DNA of 52,832 nt, from positions 1 to 52,832 of the forward strand of contig OMJM01000060.1 in the NCBI GenBank assembly GCA_900299345.1. Direction: 5' to 3'. The position numbers were made by a program, and so were the translations under genes. Shown in pieces: positions 41,501 through 45,122 of the stretch (positions within the stretch are counted from its first letter, which is position 1; every line of letters starts with the position of its first letter). The notes under the pieces are model-generated. The model searched no databases, was not told the DNA's origin, and saw only the letters and a list, made by a program, of their open reading frames with translations. Source of the stretch: a bacterium. GTDB lineage: Bacteria; Fibrobacterota; Fibrobacteria; UBA11236.

Positions 41501-42179
41501 CCAACCGATTCAACTCATCCGCCGTCAACTCCCGGAATCTTCCTTCAGGCAGATCTCCGAGTTTCACGCCGCCGAATTCGATGCGCTGAAGATCTTCGAC
41601 ATGATGGCCGATGGCCTGCAACATGCGGCGGATCTCGCGTTTCTTACCCTCCCGCAGGCTCACCAGAAAGTAGTCGTCATCGGGTTCAATCGATTCGCAC
41701 TTGAACACCACACCGGGTTCGATTTCGATCCCGTGCAGCATTTCGTCCGCGTCTTCACGAGAAAGTTCATGACGGGTGCGCACAGCATAGACGCGTAGCA
41801 CACCATGACGCGGATGCGTCAGTGACAAAGTCCATTCGCCGTCACTCGTGAAGAACAAAAGACCGCGACTGTATCTGTCGAGACGGCCCACATAATGCAA
41901 CCGGTGGAATTTTTCGGGGAGAAGATCATATACGGTTTCACGATCGTGCGTGTCGCCGCGCGAGCAGAGATAACCGGGGGGTTTGTTGAAGAGGAGGTAG
42001 GTGTGCTGTTCCGCGGCCTTCACAGGCTTGCCATCCACGGCCACGCGATCCGAATCTCCGACCTCAGTAGACAGCTCCGCGATCTCGCCGTTGACAGTCA
42101 CTCGTCCGAAACGGATGATTCCTTCGACCGAGCGCCGGCTTCCCAACCCGCACAGTGCGAGATAACGATTAAGACGCAT
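41490..42179 (-). CDS. RsuA/RluB-family rRNA pseudouridine synthase
   Basis: The 229-residue enzyme isomerises a specific uridine in rRNA. An N-terminal S4 RNA-binding domain (RLNRYLALCGLGSRRSVEGIIRFGRVTVNG) precedes the catalytic domain with VGRLDRYSRGLLFFTSDG, which contains the catalytic Asp, and the KREIRRMLQAIGH motif. This is the RsuA/RluB/E/F branch; which site it modifies is undecided. The start overlaps the upstream small gene by 11 nt, so they are coupled. Its stop codon is supplied by the palindromic repeat. Confidence 0.92.
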   Translation of the reverse strand: MRLNRYLALCGLGSRRSVEGIIRFGRVTVNGEIAELSTEVGDSDRVAVDGKPVKAAEQHTYLLFNKPPGYLCSRGDTHDRETVYDLLPEKFHRLHYVGRLDRYSRGLLFFTSDGEWTLSLTHPRHGVLRVYAVRTRHELSREDADEMLHGIEIEPGVVFKCESIEPDDDYFLVSLREGKKREIRRMLQAIGHHVEDLQRIEFGGVKLGDLPEGRFRELTADELNRLAKL

Positions 42180-42495
42180 TTCCGTCGCCAGGATTTTTGA
42201 TTCCCAGTCGTGTGCCGAAATCCTTCAGCAATTCCTCGTTGCGCGTCAGGAATTGCCGCGCCACGCCCACCGCGATTTCCACGGTGTCTTTGCCGAAGCG
42301 TTCGGTCCATCCGGCGACCAACGCGGAGGTTTCGCTGCCGAGTGGCTTGCCCGCTTGAAGTTCGCGCGCCATGGAAAGCGCCAGTCGCATGCCGAGTCCG
42401 CTGCGGATGCGCTCGACATCCTGCGTGTTTTCGATCAACTGATCGAGCCGTGCCAGCGTTTCATCCAGATTCCCGGCATCCATGCGCTCAGACAT
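42169..42495 (-). CDS. Small helical protein of unknown function
   Basis: The 108-residue soluble protein is predicted all-helical, with charged amphipathic stretches (LDETLARLDQLIENTQDVERIRSGLGMRLALSMARELQ) and no motif I recognise. It is embedded in an operon: its ATG overlaps the stop of the radical SAM gene (shared base 42495) and its 3' end overlaps the pseudouridine synthase. The conserved overlaps and gene-like codon use support a real gene. Confidence 0.68.
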   Translation of the reverse strand: MSERMDAGNLDETLARLDQLIENTQDVERIRSGLGMRLALSMARELQAGKPLGSETSALVAGWTERFGKDTVEIAVGVARQFLTRNEELLKDFGTRLGIKNPGDGNAS

Positions 42496-45122
42496 CAGGC
42501 CACCTTATCGACTGAAATTTTTTTACCGGTCCCTGAGCTTGTCGAAGGGCCGGTCGTTATTTCAAAGTCTTCCTTGCTCAACGGCTCCGAGCGCAAAGCT
42601 TCTGGGTCCATGCGCAGCAGCAATCCGAATACGGCGTAGGGATTGACAGTGGAACCGCTCGGCTGCGTTTTCAAGCGCAGGCAGAGACCATCTGGATTGA
42701 GACGAGCTTCGAGGATTTCTTCCCGCGCATCCAGAGGCTTGTCGCGGTGCATGCCGGTTTCCACCAAACCGTTTTGAAAGCGATCCAACGCATCCGCCAA
42801 CGCCTGTGTGCCGCCGGAGAAATTGCCCGGCAGCTTGTACAACACGTTTTCGATGCGCGGCATTTTCGCCGTGGGCGCGGCATCGAGCGCGATCACGTCC
42901 ATTCCCTCAGGCAGGCATTCGTTAAGCCGGCTGATCCACGACGTTGAATCGCCTTCCAGAGGTTTCGCAAATTCGACGATCAGCAATTCCTTGTGTGACG
43001 CGAGACCGAGCGGCAAGGCCCCGGTGTTCTTGAGCGCGGCCCGCGGGTTGAATCCGGAAGTCAGCCGCAGGGAGATCTTAAGGCGGCGAAAGGCTTTTTC
43101 AAAAAGGTCGTGCGTATTCTGGTGCGCGATGAAGCGCGCCAATCCGGTCTTGCGGTAATACAGGTGATAGGCATAAGAGGCGTCCGAGCTGCGTGCATGG
43201 CGTTCCTTCGCGAGCGCGGAGATTTCCTCGGGTTGCCGGTTTGGGGCCACATAACGCACGGGATCCAGAGACAGTTTTGTATCCTCGCCGTTGCCGGGGA
43301 TACCGCACTTCTGGCAATCACCCCATTTGCAATCCGGAACCGGCGCCGCATCCTCGCGGAACATTTTCTTGTACTCGTTTTTGAGATAGCCTTTATTCGC
43401 CCCGGCGTGGATGAAATCCCACGGGAAGACTTCATCCAGATCGCGCGAGTCGTAAACCCGCGCCATGTCGTAGCCGGTTTCTTCCCAGATTTTCTGCCAG
43501 CCTTCGAAGCTGAAATGTTCGGAGAAAGATTCGAACACCATACCGCGCTTGTAAGCTTCGTAAATCAGCGCCGACTGGCTGCGGTCGCCACGCGAATAAA
43601 AACTTTCGACCCAAGACAATCCGTAATCGGCCCACGTGATACGCACGCCGGGAACGCGACGGAAGGCTTCACGCACGTACTGGATGTGCGCCTTGACCGT
43701 GACTTCGTCCATGAAAGGAACCCATTGCATGGGCGTGAACGGCTTGGGGACGAGGATGCCGATGTTGGCATGCACGGTATTGCGCTTGTTGTGTTTCAGG
43801 GCGATGGCGCTGAGGTTGCGAATCAGGCCGCAGAACGCTTCCATGTCTTCCAGGTTTTCCGTGGGAAACCCGATCATGGTGTACAACTTGATGTTGTGAA
43901 AGCCGCTTTTGAACACGCTCTCCGCCGCATCGTACATGTCCTGATCGCTGATGGTCTTGTTGATCAGCTTGCGAATGCGCTCGGAACCGGTTTCGGGCGC
44001 GAAAGTTGCGCTCTTGCCGCCGGACAGCGCCGCAGCCTTGCGGGCGAGTCCCTGTCCGAAGCTGTTGGCGCGCAACGAGGGCAACGACACGTCCACACCG
44101 TCGAAGTCTTCGTTTTCCACGATGAAGTCGAGCACTTTTTCCACGGGTTTGTAATCCGCCGTGGACAGTGAAAGCAAACCGAGTTCGCGTTCACCTGTGG
44201 CTTCCATGCCGCGGCGTGCGATGTCGATGGCATCGTCCGCGTTCAGTTCGCGGTTGGGGCGGTACCAGTAACCTGCCTGGCAGAAGCGGCAGCCTTGCGT
44301 GCAACCGCGCATCACTTCCACGGAAAAGCGATCGTGGACAAGTTGCATGTGGGGCACGAGATTGCGTACCGGATAATCAGCCGGATCGAGTTTTTCCACC
44401 CAATGACGCTTAATGCTTTTGGCCCGCACATACGGACCTTGCGACGCTTCCACTACAGGAACGGTTTCACCGCGTTCGTTTTGCGTCGTCTCCAAAAAGC
44501 GCGGGACATAGATTCCGGGAAGTTCGGACACACTGCGGAGAATGTCGCCGCGGGATTTTCCCGCGCGGCGGCCTTCGCCCAGCACGCGCAGCAATTTCGG
44601 CGCGAGATTTTCCCCGTCGCCGATCACGAAGAGATCGAAGAAGTCCGCCACGGGTTCGGGGTTGGCCATGCACGGCCCACCGCCGATCACGAAGGGTTCG
44701 GATTCCGCGCGATCCTTGGCAAAGGCATGCACTCCGGCCAGTTCGAGCACGAAGGGCACGTTGGTGTAATTGAGTTCGGTCTGCAGGGAAATGCCGATGG
44801 CTGTGAAGTCAGCGATGGAGCGGTACGACTCGAGCGTGTACAACGGAATTCCAAGCGCGCGCAATTCCGCCGACATGTCCGGCATGGGCGCAAAGGCGCG
44901 TTCGGCTGCCAGATCCGCTTCGCGGTTGAAGAGGTGGTACAGCACCTTGGTGCCGTTGTGCGACATCCCGATTTCGTAAACGTCTGGAAACACCAAAGCG
45001 ATGGACGCGATTACGGTGTCCGGATCCTTGACGATCTGGTTGGCCTCGCCGCCGAGATAGCGGCCGGGATTTTTCACCTTGGGCAAAATGCGGGGAAGAA
45101 CGTCGGTAATGGAAGCAGTCAT
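42495..45122 (-). CDS. TIGR03960-type B12-binding/radical SAM protein fused to a TIGR03936 (DUF2344) domain
   Basis: The 875-residue protein has an N-terminal cobalamin-binding-like region (ALVFPDVYEIGMSHNGTKVLYHLFN), a radical SAM core with the cluster motif RGCTQGCRFCQAGYWYRP near residue 273, and a C-terminal DUF2344/TIGR03936 domain (YRKTGLARFIAHQNTHDLFEKAFRRL onward, residues about 650-850). Such proteins are often encoded near RNase G and ribosomal L21/L27, but their reaction is not established. The last 20 codons are unusual: they are written by a REP-like palindrome (42525-42554) encoding GPSTSSGTG. Confidence 0.9.
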   Translation of the reverse strand: MTASITDVLPRILPKVKNPGRYLGGEANQIVKDPDTVIASIALVFPDVYEIGMSHNGTKVLYHLFNREADLAAERAFAPMPDMSAELRALGIPLYTLESYRSIADFTAIGISLQTELNYTNVPFVLELAGVHAFAKDRAESEPFVIGGGPCMANPEPVADFFDLFVIGDGENLAPKLLRVLGEGRRAGKSRGDILRSVSELPGIYVPRFLETTQNERGETVPVVEASQGPYVRAKSIKRHWVEKLDPADYPVRNLVPHMQLVHDRFSVEVMRGCTQGCRFCQAGYWYRPNRELNADDAIDIARRGMEATGERELGLLSLSTADYKPVEKVLDFIVENEDFDGVDVSLPSLRANSFGQGLARKAAALSGGKSATFAPETGSERIRKLINKTISDQDMYDAAESVFKSGFHNIKLYTMIGFPTENLEDMEAFCGLIRNLSAIALKHNKRNTVHANIGILVPKPFTPMQWVPFMDEVTVKAHIQYVREAFRRVPGVRITWADYGLSWVESFYSRGDRSQSALIYEAYKRGMVFESFSEHFSFEGWQKIWEETGYDMARVYDSRDLDEVFPWDFIHAGANKGYLKNEYKKMFREDAAPVPDCKWGDCQKCGIPGNGEDTKLSLDPVRYVAPNRQPEEISALAKERHARSSDASYAYHLYYRKTGLARFIAHQNTHDLFEKAFRRLKISLRLTSGFNPRAALKNTGALPLGLASHKELLIVEFAKPLEGDSTSWISRLNECLPEGMDVIALDAAPTAKMPRIENVLYKLPGNFSGGTQALADALDRFQNGLVETGMHRDKPLDAREEILEARLNPDGLCLRLKTQPSGSTVNPYAVFGLLLRMDPEALRSEPLSKEDFEITTGPSTSSGTGKKISVDKVA
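42525..42554. repeat. REP-like palindrome inside the radical SAM coding end
   Basis: The core CCCTGAGCTTGTCGAAGGG (42531-42549) is flanked by ACCGG and CCGGT, giving an imperfect stem with one bulged T. I recognise this core as a dispersed intergenic palindrome of many bacterial genomes. Here it is translated in frame as GPSTSSGTG near the protein C-terminus. A shorter relative is at 46757-46783. Confidence 0.85.

Follow-up and report, generated by a model that had tools for sequence, protein, structure and literature searches.

How does a palindromic, REP-like repeat come to lie within the reading frame of a conserved protein, and did it create the end of that protein or enter an end that already existed? 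This question is raised by one locus in the window, the whole stretch of 52,832 nucleotides analyzed here, where such a repeat lies close to the 3' end of a radical SAM (rSAM) gene and just before the next gene begins. The features concerned are as follows.

42169 to 42495, minus strand: coupled downstream gene, 108 aa, matching no Pfam or NCBIfam family; 45-69% identity in the genus and family
42495 to 42497, minus strand: stop codon TGA, sharing one base with the next ATG (TGATG); from the sequence and homologous junctions in relatives
42495 to 45122, minus strand: B12-binding radical SAM fusion protein (TIGR03960 + TIGR03936/DUF2344), 875 aa; from family profile matches and AlphaFold
42525 to 42554, no strand assigned: full hairpin, ACCGG-CCCT..AGGG-A-CCGGT; from folding against shuffles
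42526 to 42549, minus strand: putative insert CCCTTCGACAAGCTCAGGGACCGG, 24 bp, coding PSTSSGTG (residues 859-866), between GACCGG direct repeats; its length is our estimate
42531 to 42549, minus strand: palindromic core CCCTTCGACAAGCTCAGGG, 19 bp; from pattern searches of the window and genomes

First, we examined the element itself. An exact copy of the palindromic core, CCCTGAGCTTGTCGAAGGG on the plus strand, lies within the rSAM gene and is the only core match in the whole window, even when three mismatches are allowed (0.01 expected). The minus strand near the 3' end of the gene reads ..GAA ATA ACG ACC GGC CCT TCG ACA AGC TCA GGG ACC GGT AAA AAA ATT TCA GTC GAT AAG GTG GCC TGA TG.., in which the core is in frame with the open reading frame; the protein runs through the repeat as ..TTGPSTSSGTGKK..., and its predicted C-terminal peptide, with the repeat-encoded part included, is ..EDFEITTGPSTSSGTGK. 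Nine codons separate the octapeptide from the stop. Thus, the preliminary description was correct in placing an in-frame repeat palindrome near the C-terminus of a TIGR03960 protein. Folding analysis revealed that the surrounding 30-nt stretch forms one hairpin (ACCGG.CCCT..11 nt..AGGG.A.CCGGT; z about -2.3 to -2.75), with nine pairs, one bulge and the arms ACCGGCCCT/AGGGACCGGT. The GACCGG direct repeats (42555-42550 and 42531-42526) are separated by 24 bp, and may represent the element's own arms rather than a target duplication.

Second, the host protein scored above the curated cut-offs of both TIGR03960 (587.8 bits; cut-off 462.3) and TIGR03936 (94.1; cut-off 71.9), and its closest named relatives were from Fibrobacterota MAGs. 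A sequence search found no solved structure for it. According to the AlphaFold model, the folded part extends to approximately residue 856, where the last strand (849-856) ends, and the pLDDT of tail residues 859-875 is below 50 (about 30). Therefore, the insert falls within a sequence that is predicted to be disordered.

The preliminary description had further proposed that the repeat carried the frame past an ancestral stop, in which case orthologues should end just before TGPSTSSGTG. None of the nine genus and family orthologues ended there. All of them possess tails of their own after the K(E/D)DF strand motif (KEDF or KDDF), the last conserved one, and these tails cannot be aligned (G007, 8 residues; G004, 14; G009, 17; G003, 18; G002, 19; G006, 24; G005, 43; G008, 49; G001, about 49). 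The tail of the window protein has 22 residues with the repeat and 14 without it. In addition, all genus and family relatives examined have a homologue of the 108-aa gene directly 3' of the rSAM gene, and in most of the nine the rSAM stop overlaps or abuts the start of this homologue (ATGA, TGATG or an 8-nt overlap). The junction in the sister species G003 is an 8-nt overlap, and the downstream MSE.. start is common to G003 and the window. The distance from the F of the motif to the ATG is 68 nt in the window, 44 nt once the 24-bp insert is subtracted and 49 nt in G003. Because the homologous gene follows in all relatives and the stop touches its start in most of them, the end of the tail was most likely set by this coupled junction before the repeat arrived. 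Thus, the suggestion that a REP-like repeat became part of the tail of a TIGR03960 protein held, whereas the suggested extension of the frame was not supported, given the orthologue tails and the anchored stop.

Extension would mean that insertion of the repeat at or ahead of the old stop abolished it, so that translation now runs to a chance stop downstream. Such a history would fit the lack of a clear counterpart, in other species, of the tail past the repeat; moreover, flanking ORFs can take their stop codons from GTAG-type REPs (PMC3733652). However, the stop is located at the conserved coupled junction, which the tails of all relatives reach, and with the insert subtracted the window tail is among the shorter ones rather than unusually long. 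Extension past an ancestral stop was thus rejected in our analysis on the basis of the orthologue tails and the coupled junction, and we regard it as improbable. As a separate observation, two Bacteroidota-labelled rSAM orthologues (L031 and L032) have their stop codon within a different palindrome (GTCCCGAAYTARCTTCGGGAT), and L031 carries a CACTGAGCGGAGTCGAAGTG repeat shortly after the stop, which could be a true case of a repeat ending an rSAM protein.

Removal of the 24 bp leaves an open frame, ..FEITTGKKISVDKVA*, comparable to ..FNIVEGKSST.. of G003, and excision of the sequence separating the GACCGG hexamers yields ..SKEDFEITTGKKISVDKVA*, similar to ..SKEDFNIVEGKSSTTLILENADV* of the same species around G-K. 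These pre-insertion sequences are reconstructed rather than observed; the nearest relatives are ~75% identical and their tails are not alignable. Since the orthologues have tails of their own and the stop is anchored at the next gene, GKKISVDKVA is more plausibly part of the original tail, which an in-frame insertion has split. Overall, the simplest account, which appears quite likely, is that a REP-like copy (~24 bp, 8 codons) was inserted in frame into a pre-existing, disordered and rapidly diverging rSAM tail, before a stop that was already coupled, and was retained as a harmless and most likely neutral addition. In this scenario, a palindromic repeat found across Fibrobacterota (core CCCTTCGACARGCTCAGGG) would have added approximately 24 bp, or eight codons, to an intrinsically disordered C-terminal tail upstream of the coupled stop. 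Retention of the copy would be explained by the small size, hydrophilicity and flexibility of PSTSSGTG, which would leave the folded domains and the TGATG coupling undisturbed. In functional terms, the inserted copy is most likely a neutral piece of selfish DNA or debris.

Another possibility is that the element was selected for regulation, with the mRNA hairpin, ~30 nt before the stop/start junction, tuning downstream coupling or mRNA stability and the coding being incidental. The hairpin is indeed stable relative to shuffles and close to the coupled start. However, it is not conserved at the rSAM junction in any relative, and copies elsewhere are deep within genes and remote from junctions. 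Moreover, no terminator-like signal was detected at the element, and a search of 42000-43000 against Rfam gave no match. A regulatory role therefore seems slightly less probable even than extension.

We then asked how widely the repeat occurs. In the genome to which the window belongs, the core had one exact copy, one copy with one mismatch and two copies with two mismatches, and the reversed-pattern control gave none. The R-degenerate core was present in 27 copies in the congener G003 and three in G001, and was absent from G002 and from the sister genus; across Fibrobacterota it occurred in 76 of 168 genomes, with up to 48 copies per genome and again none for the reversed control. The palindrome is a genuine repeat family. 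Chance convergence on a 19-mer, or an assembly or binning artefact, might be suspected from the handful of copies in the own genome and its 91-contig draft assembly, but is very improbable in view of the low expected number of matches, the distribution among the 168 genomes, a downstream gene that is the same as in the congeners and an uninterrupted rSAM frame. The variant with CAC/GTG arms had no copy in the own genome. Viral contigs lacked the extended 26-mer CGGCCCTTCGACARGCTCAGGGACCG but commonly contained the bare 19-mer. Matching flanks (ACCCCACCC..GGGCATCGCC) around one copy in the own genome (L002) and one in G003 (L127) suggest a copy shared from an ancestor.

The repeat was also found within other proteins. 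Of the 27 copies in G003, at least 15 are read in frame, either in proteins alignable to orthologues from congeners or in internal repeats of a propeller-like protein. The host proteins, named by inspection of their sequences rather than by family search, are HisA, a lipoate-ligase-like protein, ProRS, TldD, a UvrD-type helicase, PdxA, IleRS, RlmN, a ferredoxin, an oxidoreductase, a DmsBC-like protein, NuoK and three propeller repeats. Thus, the earlier view that the core is normally intergenic fails in this lineage, as more than half of the G003 copies are inside genes. In RlmN, the ferredoxin and the oxidoreductase the copy is at the C-terminal tail, and the ferredoxin and rSAM genes share a gene neighbourhood. 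Alignments of HisA, ProRS, PdxA, IleRS and others revealed in-frame insertion relative to insert-free orthologues. Copies typically add several residues net, in variable loops; the gain is best defined in ProRS (+9 residues, +27 bp) and the propeller repeats (+7, +21 bp). Net insertions in the congener thus differ in length and can depart from 24 bp, so that they do not demonstrate one fixed insert length.

With regard to frame usage, 15 of the 17 in-frame genus copies are read as PST(S/G)SG, and the remaining two as PEPVEG and LRQAQG (one each). This bias was significant against expectations of both 1/5 and 1/3 (binomial P 3e-9 and 4e-6, respectively) and was 13 of 15 with the propeller copies collapsed, although the frames were tallied after the data were seen and selection is not separable from target-site preference. 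Core translations such as PFDRLR, LSLSKG and PE(L/P)VEG are presumably common in databases. Among the G003 loci, nine (L104, L108, L113, L117, L120, L123, L124, L125 and L130) have the palindrome in frame in HisA, the lipoate-ligase-like protein, ProRS, TldD, NuoK, the UvrD-type protein, PdxA, IleRS and the DmsBC-like protein, nearly all in the PST(S/G)SG frame. In the propeller-like repeat protein, three copies in G003 (L134) and one variant in the own genome (L135/L004, G000) occupy the same place in the repeat unit, with PSTGSGTG between W-T-G and xLVAVG. The Fibrobacter genome G086 also has in-frame copies, but these are spread over more frames. In the same genome, histidine-rich proteins (L242 and L250) carry several PSTGSGT and VTEPAEV segments, the latter of which could be encoded by a variant of the palindrome with CACT..AGTG arms. 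Of the copies in the distant genome G011, 20 were sampled and appeared mostly extragenic, with fixed flanks GCTCG/CGAACGG; G086 and G011 were both judged from ORFs alone.

As to how the repeat spreads, no Y1/RAYT transposase (PF01797) was detected in the four genomes of the genus, whereas control genomes gave matches. Mobilization by a RAYT was rejected because PF01797 is absent from these genomes. Complementary flanks beyond the core were observed in 9 of 33 genus copies (two expected), and complementarity between a copy's own flanks exceeded that of shuffles in the genus (P 0.001) and in G086 (P 0.004), but not in G011. When the first five bases were skipped this signal faded (P 0.23 and 0.13 for the genus and G086, respectively), and therefore no conclusion was drawn on a flank-specific palindrome or fold-back insertion model. 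Several copies, including L108, L114, L115 and L125, are flanked by copy-specific inverted repeats (for example, AACCCACC..GGTGGGTT), as if they had been inserted in, or had generated, larger palindromes.

The single copy in the window is probably an ordinary, neutral tail insertion. The wider pattern is of more interest; in-frame protein-coding palindromes occur in Fibrobacterota too. We tentatively propose, with somewhat less than even confidence, that Fibrobacterota may host an undescribed, transposase-orphan palindrome that persists preferentially inside core genes in one frame, as a PST(S/G)SG flexible linker; these would be independent protein-coding palindromes outside Rickettsiales, with the rSAM tail as one example. 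A full-text search of the open literature for the core strings found no paper, which does not prove that the element is undescribed. One genome with about 15 in-frame copies, together with sister species lacking copies at those sites, forms a tractable set for studying the movement of repeats that have no transposase and the peptide frames that proteins can accept.

Finally, we compared the element with known systems. Like REPs in the broad sense, it is an imperfect palindrome of 20-40 bp (the 30-nt hairpin) with multiple dispersed copies; unlike them, it is not predominantly extragenic, given the in-frame copies of G003. The same size, dispersal and partly intragenic location are features of the GTAG and CGTC superfamilies (Di Nocera et al., 2013), a study that does not mention Fibrobacter. 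These superfamilies differ in their unpaired end tag, which is missing from the Fibrobacterota element: no GTAG or CGTC tag was seen at the window copy, and none occurred consistently next to the stem in the flanks of the 33 genus copies, as judged by eye. On the other hand, CGTC REPs are also apparently without a dedicated transposase (Di Nocera et al., 2013). RAYT-associated REPs and REPINs are likewise short palindromic repeats, scattered singly, but the present family differs in the absence of the Y1 transposase from the four genus genomes and in its low copy number (0-27). Rickettsia palindromic elements (RPEs) are in-frame palindromes that are tolerated in many conserved protein genes (PMC2229807, PMC3733652), and the window family similarly consists of palindromic repeats in frame inside conserved proteins. 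RPEs are described as 105-146 bp long and from Rickettsia, whereas here a 19-bp core adds ~21-24 bp in Fibrobacterota, a distinction based on description rather than on sequence. The Rickettsia-type pattern of in-frame insertion relative to insert-free orthologues was observed directly in G003, and for the window copy the empty site is reconstructed. Thus, the repeat family with its in-frame copies resembles the Rickettsia protein-coding palindromes and intragenic REPs, both of which are already known kinds of repeat.
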